Source: a virus. From it: a stretch of 64,000 nt of DNA. Every line of letters begins with the position of its first letter. The first letter of the stretch is position 1. The DNA is taken from the IMG/VR virus record IMGVR_UViG_3300046005_000547, positions 170,736 through 234,735 of that record; one strand, written 5' to 3'. A model generated the notes under the pieces. It saw nothing but the letters and a program-made list of their open reading frames with translations. It was not told the DNA's origin and searched no databases. The position numbers and the translations under genes were made by a program. Below, piece by piece: positions 38,591-63,690 of the stretch.

Positions 38591-39280
38591 TTATTTCTCC
38601 ATCTTCTTGAAAATGGTATCACAAATCTTAGGAACTTGTTCTCCTGCCTTACCTTCAAAGAATTCAAATTCAGCCCACATTGTTGATGGTTTAACTAAAT
38701 CCACCAATAAAATTTTACAGTCTGAACCGACGGCATCCAATAATGACGCAGCAGGATAAACTGATAACGACGTTCCAACCACAACCATGTAATCATAATG
38801 TTCTTCTTTAATCATTGCATATGCAGTTTCAAACATCGGAACATCTTCATAGAAGAATACAATATGTGGTCTTAATTGATTACCTTGTTCAGATAATGTT
38901 CCCACAAACATATCATCAGTCCAATCATATGTAAATCCTGTTACGGTATCTCTTGCTTTAAGTAATTCGCCATGTAGATGGATAACTTTGCTGGAACCTG
39001 CTCGTTCATGTAAATTATCAACATTGGTTGTGATGACTGTTACATCATGATATTGTTCCAATTCCTTGATAGCAATATGTGCTGCATTAGGTTCAACAGT
39101 CTGAACTTCTTTGCGTCTCATGTTATAAAATTCATGAACCAATTCAGGAGTTTCGGCTAATGCCTTTGGTGTACAAACATCTTCAATGTTGTAGTTGTTC
39201 CATAATCCATCTGAATTTCTAAATGTACTCAGACCAGATTCAGCTGATATACCAGCACCCGTTAAAAATAATATCTTCAT
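38591..39280 (-). CDS. Sirtuin (Sir2 family, class III type) NAD-dependent deacylase
   Basis: 229 residues. NAD-binding motifs GAGISAESGLSTFR (8-21), TTNVDN (84-89), catalytic HLHGEL (His103), LRPHIVFFYE and VVVGTSLSVYPAASL are all present. FYNMRR carries the Y52-x-x-R55 pair typical of class III enzymes (CobB, SIRT5) that remove succinyl or malonyl groups. The four zinc-binding Cys expected between HGEL and LRPHIV are missing. It may reverse host lysine acylation, act with the ADP-ribosyltransferase in NAD chemistry, or counter NAD-based immunity; none is shown. Confidence 0.9.
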   Translation of the reverse strand: MKILFLTGAGISAESGLSTFRNSDGLWNNYNIEDVCTPKALAETPELVHEFYNMRRKEVQTVEPNAAHIAIKELEQYHDVTVITTNVDNLHERAGSSKVIHLHGELLKARDTVTGFTYDWTDDMFVGTLSEQGNQLRPHIVFFYEDVPMFETAYAMIKEEHYDYMVVVGTSLSVYPAASLLDAVGSDCKILLVDLVKPSTMWAEFEFFEGKAGEQVPKICDTIFKKMEK

Positions 39281-55429: not shown

Positions 55430-55462
55430 AAAGTTCATTGGATTCTTCCAACTTGAACTCTA
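55430..55462 (-). repeat. Duplicated 5' leader, copy 2
   Basis: Near-identical to 27370-27396. It overlaps the last ~12 codons of the lipase gene, so those codons are part of a shared regulatory block. Confidence 0.7.
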
Positions 55463-56136
55463 TTATAATGATTTTTATTTACATCGAAAGAACTTTCTAA
55501 AGATTTAATATAAAAATTAATGTCGTGTGAATTTTTAATAAATTTACCAGTCAATCTATCTTTGATTATGTCCATTATATTACAGTCTTGAACGATATTC
55601 CCTTTGGAATTTATATACATTAAAATCCCATGATGTCTATAAGGATAAATCGGAGTCATGGGAGCATAATCATACGCAGCAGCAAATCTATAATGTGTTG
55701 ATTTAACGTTATCCACAAATTCTTTATTACCAATTCTAGGGGATCCAAAAGAATATATGACACAATCATCTCTGTCGATTAAATGTGAAAAGATAACTGC
55801 GATTGCACCACCCAATGAATGTCCAGTCAAATATAATTTTTTATTTTTGTCTAATCTATCACCCAATGATTCCAATAACAATTCAGAATATCTCAAGAAT
55901 CCACTTTGAATCCCTTTTTTCAATGTAAATGATATATCAGCAATCCAATCTTCTGGTTCGTCAGTGCCTCTGAATACAATTATTTGTTCAGTTTCTGATT
56001 CCAATAAGAATGCTTGCGCAAAACAATTTGAAAATAATTCAACAGAATACCCTTGTACAGTTATTGAATCGTTGTATGATTGTTTAGATAGATTAGCGAA
56101 GAATAATGCTTCATATAGAATCATAAATCTGTCCAT
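55435..56136 (-). CDS. Class 3 lipase-like alpha/beta hydrolase
   Basis: 233 residues. QIIVFRGTDEPEDWIADISF (oxyanion region), KLYLTGHSLGGAIAVIFSHL with nucleophile Ser107, VIYSFGSPRIGNKEF and a YDYAPMTPIYPYRHHG segment (catalytic Asp near 155, His near 165) follow fungal/bacterial lipase_3 proteins. A hydrophobic N-terminus (MILYEALFFANLS) may target the membrane. It could hydrolyse host lipids, changing the membrane or helping lysis. The C-terminal ~12 residues are translated from promoter sequence, so the tail may be a recent extension. Confidence 0.85.
   Translation of the reverse strand: MDRFMILYEALFFANLSKQSYNDSITVQGYSVELFSNCFAQAFLLESETEQIIVFRGTDEPEDWIADISFTLKKGIQSGFLRYSELLLESLGDRLDKNKKLYLTGHSLGGAIAVIFSHLIDRDDCVIYSFGSPRIGNKEFVDNVKSTHYRFAAAYDYAPMTPIYPYRHHGILMYINSKGNIVQDCNIMDIIKDRLTGKFIKNSHDINFYIKSLESSFDVNKNHYNRVQVGRIQ
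55463..55491 (-). promoter_or_regulatory. Phage promoter (CTTTCGA-N16-TATAAT) inside lipase 3' end
   Basis: CTTTCGA at 55485-55491 and TATAAT at 55463-55468 on the - strand, 16-base spacer, coding for the C-terminal residues of the lipase in the same strand. Confidence 0.8.
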
Positions 56137-57872: not shown

Positions 57873-57972
57873 GAATTTTCCAGTTGAAATGTATATAAAA
57901 TAAAGTCGAGGAAGACACTAAAAGAAAACCTAAAAACAATAGATACACTAACTCAAACCGTCGACATAGTCT

Positions 57973-58002
57973 AGTATATCCGAGTTTTATCGATTTCGAA
58001 AG
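57973..58002 (-). promoter_or_regulatory. Repeat-array promoter C
   Basis: CTTTCGA (57996-58002), N17, TATACT (57973-57978). Its transcript has no terminator before the 57787 gene, so it acts as a leader promoter. Confidence 0.65.
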
Positions 58003-58114
58003 GAGTATTCTTATCATGTAATAATCATATTCGATGCTTACGGTTATCCTTCGATGTCCTTAATGCTCTTTCGATATGTTGAATTTACAGTTTCGATGTA
58101 ATCATTAAATCCTT

Positions 58115-58213
58115 TCCAATTATTTGTTGTTTAAGATGGATTCATTATATCCTGTAGAGTTGATTGACATTTAACATAAAGATTCCATTAGAGTGGATTA
58201 TTGGACAAACAAT
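58115..58213. repeat. R2 structured repeat, copy 4
   Basis: CCAATTATTTGTTG, ATATCCTGTAGAGTTGATTG and CCATT-AG-AGTGG with TTATTGGACAAA. Between terminator D and promoter C. Confidence 0.7.
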
Positions 58214-58257
58214 AGATACATTAGGGTTGTTTTGGAATGACAATTCTGTATATTGAA

Positions 58258-58457
58258 TCCAATAAAAATCCCAACAGAATGTTTAGTTCATATTGGGATT
58301 CTGGATGACAGAGATTTTATGTTGAATAATTGATATAATAAAGTCTATAAAATGTCTTGTGATGATATAATAAAGTCTATAAAGAGTCTTGAAGTAATAT
58401 AAAAGAATACTAAAACGAGTAAAGAACATTAATAGAACTAACTCAAACCGTCGACAT
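58258..58457 (-). ncRNA. Putative short RNA D
   Basis: About 200 bases on the - strand from promoter D (CTTTCGA 58486-58492, N17, TATACT 58463-58468) to a terminator (AATCCCAA / TTGGGATT, then TTTTTATT). It contains two tandem copies of the TATAATAAAGTCTATAAA motif (as + text) and no ORF. Boundaries inferred. Confidence 0.5.
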
Positions 58458-58462
58458 AGTCT

Positions 58463-58492
58463 AGTATACTGGGTTTTTTATTATTTCGAAAG
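58463..58492 (-). promoter_or_regulatory. Repeat-array promoter D
   Basis: CTTTCGA, 17-base spacer, TATACT, then AGACTATGTCGACG. Confidence 0.65.
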
Positions 58493-58616
58493 GAGTATAA
58501 GACGATGATTATTACACATTCGATACATTATTTCATCTTAAGATTCCGTTTCGATGTTTAATATGTTCTTTCGATATGTTGAATTTACAACTTCGATGTT
58601 CTTGTTTATTATAGAC

Positions 58617-58718
58617 ATCCATATTGTTGTTTTATGATGGATTCAATATATCCTGTAGAGTTGATTGACATATAATGGAAACGATCCATTAGAGCCCATT
58701 AACGAGCAAATAATGGAT
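58617..58718. repeat. R2 structured repeat, copy 5
   Basis: Ends ATCCAT...ATGGAT; carries ATATCCTGTAGAGTTGATTG and the AGCCCATTAACGAGCAAATAA variant also seen in copy 8. Confidence 0.7.
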
Positions 58719-58761
58719 ATATTAAGAATGATTCGGAACAAACATATTGTAAATTTCAAAC

Positions 58762-58934
58762 AATAAAAATCCCACTCAGAATAAATCTGGCGGGATCTGA
58801 ATGACGGAGATTTTATGTTGAATATAGATGATTATATTATGTCGTTGTAGTAATATAATAATGTCTATAAAGAATCTAATAGTAATATAGAAGAACACTT
58901 AATGAAAGTAAAGGCAATAACTGAAACGTCGACA
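58762..58934 (-). ncRNA. Putative short RNA E
   Basis: About 170 bases on the - strand ending at a hairpin ATCCC / GGGAT with TTTTTATT. Its promoter is degenerate: TTTTCGA and TATAGT (58941-58946) are only 11 bases apart, so this unit may be weak or dead. Confidence 0.35.
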
Positions 58935-59082
58935 TAGTCTACTATAATTGAATTTCGTCGAAAAGTCAAGAGAAATCTTTAGCTTGTAATAATCATATTC
59001 GATGCCTTAGATTATCGAACAATACCTTTAATGCTCTTTCGATACATGGTATCTATTGTTTCGATGTTAACATAAAATCCTG

Positions 59083-59184
59083 TCCAGTTATTTGCTGATT
59101 TAAGATGGAGAGATTTTATGACATAGAGTTGATTGACATAATATACAAAGATTCCATTAAGATGGAATATTGGACAAATAATGG
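59083..59184. repeat. R2 structured repeat, copy 6
   Basis: Carries TTTGCTGATTTAAGATGG, CATAGAGTTGATTGACAT and ATTGGACAAATAATGG. Confidence 0.7.
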
Positions 59185-59229
59185 ATGTTATATGATTGGA
59201 TTGAAATCATATTATGTAAATTTTAAACA

Positions 59230-59361
59230 ATAAAAATCCCAACAGAATGATTAGTTCACGTTGGGATGAATTATAAAGTCGATAAAGAATCTTGAAGTAA
59301 TATAGAAAACAATAAAAGAATATAGAAATGTTATTAAAGGTAATAACTGAAACGTCGACAT
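59230..59361 (-). ncRNA. Putative short RNA F
   Basis: About 130 bases on the - strand from promoter F (CTTTCGA 59390-59396, N17, TATAGT 59367-59372) to a terminator with stem ATCCCAA / TTGGGAT and TTTTTATT. Shares the AAAGAATCTTGAAGTAATAT motif (as + text) with units A and D. Confidence 0.5.
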
Positions 59362-59366
59362 AGTCT

Positions 59367-59396
59367 ACTATACCCGAGTTTCTGACATTTCGAAAG
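59367..59396 (-). promoter_or_regulatory. Repeat-array promoter F
   Basis: CTTTCGA, 17-base spacer, TATAGT, then AGACTATGTCGACG on the - strand; divergent from the ADP-ribosyltransferase gene. Confidence 0.6.
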
Positions 59397-59501
59397 GAGT
59401 TTAAGACGTTGATTATATCAAGCTCGACGTTTCGTGTATTCTTAAGACTCTTTCGATACATTGAATTTACATCTTCGATGTTAACATTTAATCCTACATG
59501 G

Positions 59502-59597
59502 AAATTTGCTGATTTAAGGACGATTCATTATATCCTGTAGAGTTTCCTGTCATACATAATAAAAACATGTTAAATTGTATTATTGAACAAACAAATA
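59502..59597. repeat. R2-related repeat, copy 7 (degenerate)
   Basis: Keeps TTTGCTGATTTAAGG and TATCCTGTAGAGTT but loses the GATTGACA box; runs up to the ADP-ribosyltransferase leader, which includes tandem AAAT repeats (59588-59610). Confidence 0.55.
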
Positions 59598-59629
59598 AAT
59601 AAATAAATAAAATAACAAAAGGATAATCC

Positions 59630-62431
59630 ATGAAAACCTTCACTGACATACGCAAACAAATCAACGAGAACAGTCTTTATACTTCTCAACAAGAGAAAGA
59701 CGACTTCCTGAAAGATAAAAAGAAAATTGTAACTGCATTCTTATACTCTTTCATCGGTAATCTATCTCTTTACAATAAAGACTCTGCCAAAGCAAAACAT
59801 TATTTCTTATCGGATAAGAAATTACAGATTGTCAACATCAATGACGATAACAATGATGCGTCTTTAATTCTGAAAATCATGCATGATGAACATGGATTCA
59901 AGAATACAAACACTGCCAATGAGATGACTAAATTATTGGCAAAATTGAAAGTCTCGGATGTATCATCATTCGATGATGCAATTATCAGAGCATGGTTGTC
60001 GGATCTATCTCCTGCGTTCCATTCCGCTATCCCAACGGATTTGAAAAAGACTGTCGATGATTACATGAATAGTGTCACCAGTTTCGATAGATTGAGTTAC
60101 AAATTGTATAAACATAAGACTGCTTATGGTGACGGAGAGTATCTTGATTTGGCAAAGAAAGTTGGTCGAATCGAAAGACATACACATAAACCGAAAGTCG
60201 TAGTGACTCCAACTGCATCTGCCGTTCCACCTACATTAGCAAATCCTCAGATATTTGTTCCTACCGTTAATACATCGACTGCTGTTGTTACAACTCCACC
60301 GGATGTTATAGATGAACCTATTCAAATTGTTGAGAAAGAACCAGAAGTTAAACAATTCAATCAAGAATTGTATGACAAATTTAAAGTTAAAAATTTATTG
60401 AGTGATGATGAATGGGATGAATTGATTGAGGATAAAGAAGTTTTCGTTAAAATAATGATTGAATCTCCGAAACGATTATATACAACCCAATACCATAAAA
60501 TTAGAAAAGTTATGTTCAAAGAATTATCGGAAGAACAACTCATGGAAATGAAGAAAGTCTCCTGGAATTTAGATGTATTTAAATATGATATCAAAGATTC
60601 AATCATGATTCTGAAAGATAGAAATATGGATTTCGTTAAGATTTTTGGACCTTTACGAGTTGCGCAATATATGTGCGACAAAGATATTTCCGCGGGTAAA
60701 GAAATCATTGATTTTTATACTGAACAAAAGATCTTAATTTCAACTGATAATGGTAATCGTATTGTAAAGGATTTTCCAGAAATCTTAGTGGATGCAGTTA
60801 AATTGACAATCAAAGACATGGGAGTCGATTATGGTAGCTCGATGGCTGTTCATTTAAATCAACAACAAATTGATGAAATTTATGATGTTAATGATAGATT
60901 ACTTGTATTACGAAATGTTGTATTGACTGGTAGATTGATAAAGGATCCAGTTGATTTATTGAAGAAATTCAATTACAATGAAGTTTTAATCAAAGCTGGT
61001 TTAGAAAATACAAGTGTGCCTCATTTCACGCCGTATCTAAATTCAATGAATAAATTGTTCATGGAAGATATGGATAAATGGTATCCATGGGAACGAAAAT
61101 ATAGTTACATTAAACAATTATTCACCAAACCAAATGTAATTGATTATTTCAATGATAAATTTAAAAGAGCATTTACGGATGATGGTGTATTTGAATACTT
61201 CGACGACAAAGAACGATTAGATGGTATTTCATCATCATTGTTTGATTTGTTAGTATCCAATTATAAAACCAAACCGGAACTTGTTGATTCTATCTTCAAT
61301 GATTTTGGTGATAAGATTAAAACAAGAGTCAAAAAGAATTTCAACTCGACATTCAGAGTGATGCATGATTTAAAAGATAGCGCATTACCAATCAAAGAAG
61401 AACTAGATGCCAAATCTATTCAAGCTATCTTGGAATTCAATGACATCGACCTTAGTGTAATTTCTGGCACCAAAATGAAATTCTCTAAGAACAAATCGTT
61501 AAGTCAAACAATCAATGATTTTGTTAAAGATGAATCTGTTACCACTATTGAACCATTGAAAATTGTTGATTTGAAAACATCTGATGCAGATAACAAGAAG
61601 TTATCTCAGAAGATTGTTGATGAAACGCATTCTGGTGGTAAACATGGGGACATCTATCCATTAGTCTTACGTCAATTTGAAGTTCATCTACCAGATGATA
61701 AATTCCAAGAGTTCAAAAAATTGATGATTCAGAATAATTCACATAAAGAGATTGTTCCTGCTTTCCATGGCACTGGTTCTATTGCAGCTAATATGATTCT
61801 TAGATATGGATTTAAAGTGTTACCAGAACAAAGTAATTCTGCTATTGGTATACAAGGTAGAATGTTAGGTGATGGTATTTACTTTGGTACCAATATCGAC
61901 AAAGTATTACAATATGTTGGTAATAAAGGAATGACCAGAAGACTTGGTACAACTGGATATGTATTTGAAATGGAGAACGAACTTGGGGTAAAAGGTAATG
62001 ATTACAAAGAAGCTGGGTTGGGTAATGATAAAATTGCTTCGCCAGAATGGGTTGTATTTGATGCCAACAGACAATTAAAAATTATTAAGGCGTATGAAGT
62101 GAAATTGGTAGATAAATCAGAATTAGATAAATCATTAAATGAATCAGTCAAACCAAGAATGATGTCATTCAAAGAATATGTTGATATCAAGAAGAACAAT
62201 TATACATCATACAATTTCTATGACAGAAATGTAATTACGCCTGATGGCAAAGTAATCAAATCGACTGATGTAACAGACACTACATTTAAGAAAGGTATTA
62301 GAGTTGAAATCAGAGGAAGAATTACATCAGTGATTATTCCAACGAAACAATTAGAATTCAATGATGTATTGAGTTGTTATGATTTACAGGATAAACAATT
62401 AGACAAGTATCTTCGTCTATTGAATAAATAA
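59630..62431 (+). CDS. PARP-like ADP-ribosyltransferase with CTS-like N-terminus
   Basis: 933 residues, start with AAAGGATAATCC. It begins MKTFTDIRKQINENSLY, a capsid-targeting-like peptide with INE as cleavage-like site. Residues ~185-240 are a Pro/Thr/Val-rich linker; ~245-640 are helical and unassigned. The catalytic domain spans ~690-820: H713 in AFHGTG, Y751 in GDGIYFGTNIDKVLQY and E806 in SPEWVVFDANRQLKI, i.e. the H-Y-E triad of PARP-type transferases. Residues 845-858 (MSFKEYVDIKKNN) repeat the CTS-like pattern, suggesting fusion of a second head-targeted segment. By analogy with T4 Alt it may enter the host with the DNA and modify host proteins at once; T4 Alt, however, is of the R-S-E type, so this would be convergent. 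Targets unknown. Confidence 0.78.
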   Translation: MKTFTDIRKQINENSLYTSQQEKDDFLKDKKKIVTAFLYSFIGNLSLYNKDSAKAKHYFLSDKKLQIVNINDDNNDASLILKIMHDEHGFKNTNTANEMTKLLAKLKVSDVSSFDDAIIRAWLSDLSPAFHSAIPTDLKKTVDDYMNSVTSFDRLSYKLYKHKTAYGDGEYLDLAKKVGRIERHTHKPKVVVTPTASAVPPTLANPQIFVPTVNTSTAVVTTPPDVIDEPIQIVEKEPEVKQFNQELYDKFKVKNLLSDDEWDELIEDKEVFVKIMIESPKRLYTTQYHKIRKVMFKELSEEQLMEMKKVSWNLDVFKYDIKDSIMILKDRNMDFVKIFGPLRVAQYMCDKDISAGKEIIDFYTEQKILISTDNGNRIVKDFPEILVDAVKLTIKDMGVDYGSSMAVHLNQQQIDEIYDVNDRLLVLRNVVLTGRLIKDPVDLLKKFNYNEVLIKAGLENTSVPHFTPYLNSMNKLFMEDMDKWYPWERKYSYIKQLFTKPNVIDYFNDKFKRAFTDDGVFEYFDDKERLDGISSSLFDLLVSNYKTKPELVDSIFNDFGDKIKTRVKKNFNSTFRVMHDLKDSALPIKEELDAKSIQAILEFNDIDLSVISGTKMKFSKNKSLSQTINDFVKDESVTTIEPLKIVDLKTSDADNKKLSQKIVDETHSGGKHGDIYPLVLRQFEVHLPDDKFQEFKKLMIQNNSHKEIVPAFHGTGSIAANMILRYGFKVLPEQSNSAIGIQGRMLGDGIYFGTNIDKVLQYVGNKGMTRRLGTTGYVFEMENELGVKGNDYKEAGLGNDKIASPEWVVFDANRQLKIIKAYEVKLVDKSELDKSLNESVKPRMMSFKEYVDIKKNNYTSYNFYDRNVITPDGKVIKSTDVTDTTFKKGIRVEIRGRITSVIIPTKQLEFNDVLSCYDLQDKQLDKYLRLLNK

Positions 62432-62436
62432 TGAAA

Positions 62437-62471
62437 GAATCCCAGACATGTTAAAGTGTCTGGGATTTTTA
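62437..62471 (+). terminator. Terminator of the ADP-ribosyltransferase gene
   Basis: Stem AATCCCAGACA / TGTCTGGGATT followed by TTTTT on +. Confidence 0.85.
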
Positions 62472-62573
62472 ATGGAAATTTGTTGTTTTAAGATGGAATA
62501 ATAACATCCTGTAGAGTTTATTGACATATAATGGAAACGAACAACTAGAGTCCATTAACGAACAAATAATGGA
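62471..62573. repeat. R2 structured repeat, copy 8
   Basis: TTTGTTGTTTTAAGATGG, CATCCTGTAGAGTTTATTG, TTGACATATAATGG and TCCATTAACGAACAAATAAT. Lies between the rightward transferase terminator and the leftward terminator at 62.61 kb, so the transferase gene is bracketed by R2 copies 7 and 8. Confidence 0.7.
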
Positions 62574-62611
62574 TGTTTTAATATTGATTTGTGGTCAGAA
62601 TATTGTATCCA

Positions 62612-62645
62612 ATAAAAATCCCAGTCAACTTCGGTCTTCTGGGAT
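62612..62645 (-). terminator. Rho-independent terminator
   Basis: Stem ATCCCAG / CTGGGAT with a TTTTTATT tail on the - strand after the 62653 gene. Confidence 0.8.
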
Positions 62646-62652
62646 AATATAT

Positions 62653-62955
62653 TTAGATAGATGCGATGGAACCTTTGATGATACCAATACCATGTTTTTC
62701 TAAAAATTCGGAAGGTAAATCTTGTACATGGACGATAATACCTTCTTCTCTATGGTTGAATGCACCTTTACCAGAATTTGGACTATCGACAATTTTAGCA
62801 TCAGTGATAAACAATTTAATGTAATCAGTGCCTTTGGCTGACATTTTGATTTTGAAATTTACAGGGCGACCGTCTGCGTCAACGTAAATTTGTTCACCGC
62901 TTGATGATTTAGCTTCTTCCATAACCATCGCTTGGAATTCTTTAAATGTACTCAT
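62653..62955 (-). CDS. Small head-internal-like protein with CTS
   Basis: 100 residues with AAAAGGAACAAAC before ATG. N-terminus MSTFKEFQAMVMEEAKSSSG has the CTS form, with VMEE-Ala as cleavage-like site, close to T4 IP MKTYQEFIAEA. The remaining ~85 residues are a beta-rich basic domain (FKIKMSAKGTDYIKLFITDA). Size and N-terminus match T4 internal proteins, which are injected; e.g. T4 IPI inhibits a restriction enzyme. Target unknown. Confidence 0.6.
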   Translation of the reverse strand: MSTFKEFQAMVMEEAKSSSGEQIYVDADGRPVNFKIKMSAKGTDYIKLFITDAKIVDSPNSGKGAFNHREEGIIVHVQDLPSEFLEKHGIGIIKGSIASI

Positions 62956-63028: not shown

Positions 63029-63223
63029 TTAGTCTTTCCAATCAATCCTTAGATTGTTCTTTGTAAAGAACTTCACAACGGATGAACTAATTACATTTCT
63101 GAAACATTGATGTAATTTAAAATTAGGTATCTTAACGCCGATATTACGAGTTATCCATTCAGATACATCTTTCTCAACGTAATTAATCAATTCTCTAATC
63201 TCATGGTCTTTTAAACCATTCAT
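63029..63223 (-). CDS. Small helical protein
   Basis: 64 residues, helical with basic and acidic faces (DHEIRELINYVEKDVSEW). Overlaps the 2H phosphodiesterase stop by four bases. Function unknown. Confidence 0.55.
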   Translation of the reverse strand: MNGLKDHEIRELINYVEKDVSEWITRNIGVKIPNFKLHQCFRNVISSSVVKFFTKNNLRIDWKD

Positions 63224-63690
63224 GATTCTTTAATCGGTTCAATACTGAATGAATCGAATGTCAATTTATTTCCTTGTAATTGTTTAGTTAATTCTTCGAT
63301 CTTCTGAATATCTTCATCACTTGGTTTATACTTAATCGATAAATGTGGGATGTATTCAGGATAAGAATGTTTGTATCCTAGATTACTCAATACATTATGT
63401 TGAGCAATCAAATCAGGAGATTCTAATGTCAATGTAACGGCACCCCATGTAGAACCTTTCTCACCAAGTAATTTACATCCAGCGATAATACCAACAAATT
63501 TATCATGTAATGATTCAACTTTGTATGCGGGATTAGATACATCATACATTAATGTTACATGTAAATCCTCGATGATGTCTTCAATTCCATTATCATTGAA
63601 GAAACCTCTGATACGTTTGGAATCCTCTTCCGATAATTTAACAGATACGTATCCACCATTATATTGTTTCCATTGTTCAAATGTTAACAT
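63220..63690 (-). CDS. 2H phosphodiesterase, Acb1-like candidate
   Basis: 156 residues with AAAAGGAAAATAA before ATG. Two HxT/S motifs are present: LHVTLMYD (His44) and PHLSIKYK (His about 137), the hallmark of 2H phosphoesterases. The intervening text (STWGAVTLTLESPDLIAQHNVL... YPEYIPHLSI) resembles the T4 57B/Acb1 group, whose members degrade the cyclic nucleotides of CBASS defence; size fits (T4 Acb1 ~150 aa). The N-terminus MLTFEQWKQYNGG is weakly CTS-like but has no (I/L)xE. Other 2H functions (RNA 2',3'-cyclic phosphodiesterase) are possible. Confidence 0.65.
   Translation of the reverse strand: MLTFEQWKQYNGGYVSVKLSEEDSKRIRGFFNDNGIEDIIEDLHVTLMYDVSNPAYKVESLHDKFVGIIAGCKLLGEKGSTWGAVTLTLESPDLIAQHNVLSNLGYKHSYPEYIPHLSIKYKPSDEDIQKIEELTKQLQGNKLTFDSFSIEPIKES

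Follow-up and report, generated by a model that had tools for sequence, protein, structure and literature searches.

A phage PARP-type ADP-ribosyltransferase with predicted head-targeting and prohead-protease signals at both ends: a likely functional analogue of T4 Alt

Could a PARP do in a T4-like phage what Alt does in T4? T4 Alt, an ADP-ribosyltransferase (ART) with an R-S-E triad (PF03496), is packaged in the head and injected, whereas the protein considered here is a PARP with an H-Y-E triad. It is encoded in the window, i.e. the whole 64-kb stretch of DNA that was analysed, which is the right-hand part of a 234,735-base viral contig. When the initial 25 kb of the window were searched against the annotated phage collection, no near-identical phage was retrieved. 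The same genome encodes T4-type gp20 (portal), gp21 (prohead protease), gp22 (scaffold) and gp23 (major capsid), together with a gp55-type late sigma factor. The head genes do not adjoin the PARP gene, which proved to be the 933-aa open reading frame given in the preliminary description, at the same coordinates and, as also described there, transcribed opposite to most genes: nearly all neighbours lie on the minus strand. The gene and its putative expression signals are the following:

59596..59609, plus strand: late-promoter-like element with TAAATA repeats (AATAAATAA; -36, -32 and -28 from the ATG)
59619..59623, plus strand: ribosome-binding site AAGGA, read directly from the sequence
59630..62431, plus strand: PARP-type ADP-ribosyltransferase, 933 aa, ATG start
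62438..62467, no strand assigned: palindromic terminator-like hairpin just 3' of the stop codon, in a region whose hairpin count is not above that of shuffles

TAAATA is the core of T4 late promoters, and both elements that were sought as indicators of T4-type late expression, a TAAATA-type late promoter and gp55, are present. The sequence AATAAATA is also found upstream of gp18, gp19 and gp22 in the present genome. Within 90 nt upstream of the start, TAAATA occurs in 27 of 33 PARP genes as against 39 of 465 other ORFs of the same loci, and among all 6-mers upstream of the PARP genes it is the most frequent (26/32). The control ORFs often lie inside operons, so the contrast arises in part because the PARP gene has a promoter to itself. 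In a scan for sigma-70 promoters, the number of sites was not above that in shuffles.

By its fold and its intact H-Y-E triad, the 933-aa protein is a PARP-type ADP-ribosyltransferase. The catalytic features are:

61550..62134, plus strand: PARP catalytic domain, residues 641-835 (Foldseek to PARP1/2/3/4 catalytic domains; Pfam PF00644)
61766..61768, plus strand: catalytic H713 (FHGTG), at least 90% conserved among 32 aligned homologues
61880..61882, plus strand: catalytic Y751 (GIYFG), invariant among the 32 aligned homologues
62045..62047, plus strand: catalytic E806 (SPEWV), invariant among the 32 aligned homologues

The earlier reading had been made to depend, beforehand, on a PARP fold, and such a fold was found when the predicted structure was compared with PARP1 catalytic domains by Foldseek; all leading PDB matches of the predicted catalytic region are PARP catalytic domains (best E ~1e-9, prob 1.00). 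PARP is also the only domain of the protein that Pfam recognises (PF00644, residues 664-764, E=4e-5), with 23.6 bits against a curated cut-off of 26.7 bits, and it is matched at E<=1e-3 in 29 of 32 family members. Despite the sub-threshold Pfam score, the PARP identity is taken as settled, because the structure prediction matches PARP catalytic domains. The three triad residues sit exactly where they had been assigned and are conserved across homologues; with their flanking motifs, they form the most conserved part of the protein. Two homologues, L048 and L068, have lost the catalytic His (FYGTG and FSGTG, respectively), so that some family members may be inactive or altered. Cellular PARPs such as PARP1 and the tankyrases are alike in catalytic fold and triad; they differ in sequence (about 16-18% identity), and the N-terminal domain and the tail described below are phage-specific.

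Homologues are found at 45 IMG/VR loci and in phages of Aeromonas, Stenotrophomonas, Xanthomonas, Pseudomonas and Ochrobactrum, and a putative match was counted in two Lysinibacillus phage records; the protein family is therefore not new. The member in phage Aeh1 was named a viral PARP in 2014 as one of four proteins, three of which retain H-Y-E (PMC4245714), and jumbo-phage PARPs were noted in 2021 (PMC7824862); phage PARPs with this triad have already been described in both studies. PARTs were placed among viral ARTs in 2022, when phage ARTs in general were proposed to be often head-packaged (PMC9503650). Aeh1p141 and the other phage PARPs (PHROG 18612) are direct homologues that have the PARP domain in common and, in most cases, the N-terminal domain and the tail; the present copy is shorter (933 vs about 1190-1500 aa). 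What appears to be new, as judged from the sequence signals at the two ends of the protein, is the likely route of this family into the virion. The part in front of the catalytic domain is organized as follows:

59630..59668, plus strand: predicted capsid-targeting propeptide, residues 1-13, MKTFTDIRKQINE, with a predicted prohead-protease cut after E13
59669..60169, plus strand: N-terminal all-helical domain, residues 14-180, pLDDT mostly 85-95
60170..60349, plus strand: disordered P/T/V-rich linker, residues 181-240, pLDDT below 50
60350..61549, plus strand: helical middle region, residues 241-640, poorly conserved, of variable length and poorly predicted

The CTS-like character that had been ascribed to the N-terminus is borne out: with the predicted cut marked by a slash, MKTFTDIRKQINE/NSLY resembles T4 IPI, MKTFKEFTSTTTPVSTITE/A, and it is part of a pattern conserved across homologues. 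Among 25 unique homologues with the same N-terminus, all homologue counts given here being raw as to relatedness, P3 is L or I in 25 of 25 and P1 is E in 25 of 25, and the P2 position between them is free (10 residue types). This (L/I)xE site matches the cleavage rule of T4 gp21. The prefix that precedes it, about 4-22 aa long, is variable in sequence and CTS-like, and it often follows the pattern M..F..[FYL] that is seen in T4 internal proteins (MRFKEFIQLQE, MTKNFKSFLGE, MKSFKSLRSDITE). An (L/I)xE is common by itself: of the 234 ORFs in the genome with 100 aa or more, 73 have one within their first 25 residues, and therefore the weight of the argument rests on conservation. The residues N-S/T-L-Y directly after the site are also conserved, which could reflect folding and not cleavage, and P1' is almost always N, as against A, S or L in the compared T4 sites. 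Residues 1-12 are predicted to be disordered (pLDDT below 50). The all-helical domain that follows is exclusive to the PARP protein family; a search with residues 14-180 alone retrieved the PARP-family phages and two weak matches in small unrelated viruses. Some divergent members (L046, L052, L057 and L063) lack the N-terminal pattern. Three of them, L046, L052 and L057, have a different N-terminus (LLTELFNMGSAKGYPF in L057, LNEVFDPDSAYPF in L052), which still offers an early (L/I)xE and recalls T4 Alt, MELITELFDED.

A corresponding set of features is found behind the catalytic domain:

62135..62143, plus strand: predicted C-terminal prohead-protease site LNE, residues 836-838, followed by a disordered stretch, residues 839-855
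62159..62185, plus strand: internal CTS-like element MMSFKEYVD, residues 844-852 (FKEFLREA or FKEFINEG in homologues)
62195..62428, plus strand: conserved C-terminal tail domain, residues 856-933, pLDDT mostly 85-93, with F863 (invariant), D865 and P869; predicted to be removed

E838 is at least 90% conserved in the homologue alignment (A2), with P3 looser than at the N-terminal site, and most homologues have a second Glu site after the PARP domain. A further, second C-terminal site has been lost in the present phage. Both proposed cuts lie at junctions of predicted disordered stretches with folded domains, and the predicted tail after E838 comprises 95 aa. In the homologue of Ochrobactrum phage OC, the protein ends at the C-terminal site, without a tail. 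Many homologues carry F-K-E-F-[LI]-x-E-A after the C-terminal site. In the present genome, the CTS pattern is matched by 11 of 628 N-terminal Mets vs 3 of 990 internal ones (p=0.004), a difference that is only indicative, as the pattern was chosen after seeing the sequences. Two of the three internal matches are the tail element of the PARP protein itself, and among 391 ORFs the tail segment and only one other have an internal Met that matches. The tail was also considered as a free-standing phage protein and rejected as such: that of one homologue had matches only in pf16 and in Stenotrophomonas phages, and every one of these carries the PARP.

The same layout is known from Alt. Mass spectrometry has shown that T4 Alt is cut at both ends, at ITE-6 and LTE-619, and that the C-terminal cut removes 63 residues (PMC5694885). 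The two proteins are thus alike in an N-terminal targeting propeptide with an (L/I)xE site, predicted at the sequence level in the PARP, and in a second cut near the C-terminus that frees a tail (63 aa in Alt, a predicted 95 aa in the PARP). Some Alt tails have a CTS-like segment, too, of the F.xF[IL]xEA/S type (FSSFISEA in RB49, FSKFLQES in Muldoon). In contrast, no sequence match exists between the two proteins or between their tails, and profile comparison detected no homology of the C-terminal tails (hhalign probability 2%). The genes also lie in different places: in T4, alt is found close to the DNA ligase gene, and several relatives have it next to gene 54; the PARP gene is at neither place. 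The ART class differs and no homology to Alt is detectable, which suggests independent evolution, with the phages having recruited a second, unrelated class of ADP-ribosyltransferase for Alt's job. That, in T4-like phages, the RSE-type Alt and the HYE-type PARP each came independently to a common two-ended packaging scheme, consisting of an N-terminal CTS that the prohead protease removes and a removable C-terminal tail with an internal CTS-like segment, is a proposition to which we give an even chance.

Iyer et al. (2017, 2022) have proposed that polyvalent and MuF-fused phage ARTs, some of which have H-Y-[EDQ] triads, are likewise carried in the head and injected. For those enzymes, the proposal was drawn either from fusions with a MuF, portal or RNA polymerase domain or from head genes next to them, whereas the present PARP has neither such fusions nor head-gene neighbours and the case is built on targeting and protease signals.

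Taken together, the data are probably best explained by a PARP that is made late, packaged in the head, processed at both ends and acts like Alt. The PARP fold, the H-Y-E triad, the conserved signals at both ends, the late-promoter-like element and the genes for the prohead protease and the late sigma factor were all computed here; from them, we infer packaging, cleavage, injection and enzymatic activity, along with possible targets and a product that may be mono- or poly-ADP-ribose. The enzyme would be synthesized late in infection and brought into the prohead by its N-terminal capsid-targeting propeptide, where the gp21-type protease would trim both ends, cutting after E13 and after E838. 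The latter cut would free the 95-residue tail with its own CTS-like segment. The mature enzyme of ~825 residues would then travel in the head and reach the cell along with the DNA. There, at the onset of infection, it would ADP-ribosylate host macromolecules by means of NAD+, just as T4 Alt does with another class of ART domain. A nicotinamide phosphoribosyltransferase (NAMPT) is encoded a few kilobases from the PARP gene in the related contigs L013 and L014, and such a phage enzyme could recycle the nicotinamide released; nadV is annotated in Aeh1. The literature on OC, Ps15, DLP6 and pf16 yielded no virion proteomics of a PARP phage and no report of the PARP protein in virions.

Late synthesis, as indicated by the promoter-like element, would also fit an enzyme that stays in the cytoplasm and modifies proteins of the host or the phage, either during assembly or in defence against competitors. 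The signals at the ends would then mark the boundary of the N-terminal domain and a tail that regulates activity; the conserved N-S/T-L-Y after the first site could be structural, and a regulatory role could account for the conservation of the tail domain. However, a P2 that is free while P3 and P1 are fixed, along with a highly variable prefix, fits a fold boundary less well than a protease site, the CTS-like segment inside the tail is otherwise hard to explain, and T4 Alt has the same two-ended layout, so that this reading appears rather improbable. Packaging signals, in turn, would fit a head protein that has a structural role or organises DNA and in which the PARP domain has no activity or is incidental, in line with the loss of the catalytic His in two family members. 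With the triad and its surrounding motifs being the best preserved part of the protein and with NAD-salvage genes nearby (L013, L014 and Aeh1), we regard such a role as very improbable.

Another role is suggested by the ADP-ribosylglycohydrolase gene that lies immediately upstream of the PARP gene in Aeh1 and PX29; the ART-ARG pair of Aeromonas phages was classed as toxin-antitoxin by Iyer et al. 2022 (PMC9503650). As the present genome also encodes an ADP-ribosylglycohydrolase, the PARP might be one half of a toxin-antitoxin or modification-reversal pair (DraT/DraG-like) that operates inside the infected cell, and not a virion protein. Here, however, the glycohydrolase gene is ~108 kb from the PARP gene, so the two do not form an adjacent pair; in X1, Moby and the Ochrobactrum phage, no glycohydrolase was detected. 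A pair would, moreover, leave the CTS-like prefix, the two protease-type sites and the late-promoter-like element unexplained, and it is considered an unlikely function. Models of known defence systems yielded no match to the PARP protein.

The preferred reading of a head-packaged, Alt-like PARP does not imply that it took Alt's place. No canonical Alt was found in the present genome, neither as a PF03496 match nor by tblastn with T4 Alt, nor was one found in the two closest IMG/VR relatives, although all three of these IMG/VR records are possibly incomplete; X1, Moby and OC yielded none either. Aeh1 and PX29, unlike the present phage, encode a canonical Alt in addition to the PARP and have the glycohydrolase gene adjacent to the latter. 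Because these two phages have both enzymes, the PARP is not simply an Alt replacement, and replacement as a general rule was rejected. An H-Y-E ART with head-targeting and head-protease signals is supported, but the functional analogy to Alt that the preliminary description had drawn should not be read as plain replacement.

If the enzyme is indeed delivered from the head, head-delivered ADP-ribosylation would be a strategy reached with two enzyme classes and no peculiarity of Alt, and PARP chemistry, which is known mainly from eukaryotes, would be at work in bacteria in the first minutes of infection. If the two-ended scheme holds, PARPs would be delivered into bacteria by phage heads, and the C-terminal tail would be a second, overlooked targeting or silencing element of large head-packaged enzymes. 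The layout would then bear on a question raised for T4 Alt, the role of its two propeptides (PMC5694885), and the arrangement that both proteins have at their ends may provide a rule by which other packaged enzymes can be found from sequence.

The surroundings of the gene include a degenerate repeat of ~470 nt, arrays of which occupy several intergenic places. The gene had been described as bracketed by repeats, which is literally true, with copies at ~57.9-59.5 kb (window 57932-59570) and at 62478-62630. As a mark of the gene, the bracketing does not hold: further arrays in the genome (G000) lie at 41.7-43.7, 72.5-74.0, 103.9-106.1, 140.2-143.2, 161.9-163.3 and 196.3-196.8 kb, so the repeat is uninformative on the PARP gene, and a PARP cassette flanked by repeats was rejected. 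The stretch of the repeat that was tested matched no Rfam family. Two neighbours on the minus strand are listed here:

62653..62955, minus strand: small ORF (MSTFKEFQAMVMEEA...) from a set of ORFs with a common start; candidate internal head protein
63220..63690, minus strand: Acb1 anti-CBASS homologue, starting MLTFEQWKQ (CTS-like), Pfam PF23474 E=1.5e-15

The Acb1 homologue is a conserved neighbour of the PARP gene in L013 and L014. A class 3 lipase-like protein (window 55435-56136, minus strand; PF01764 E=7e-18) is encoded near the PARP locus in L013 and L014, too. The window also encodes another NAD-using enzyme, a SIR2 family protein (38591-39280, minus strand; PF02146 E=2.6e-40). The set to which the small ORF belongs starts M-x-x-F-x-x-F...VMEE/VMEQ; its members are candidate internal head proteins, and the others are located at G000 positions 65248, 67471, 72117, 136421 and 152044.
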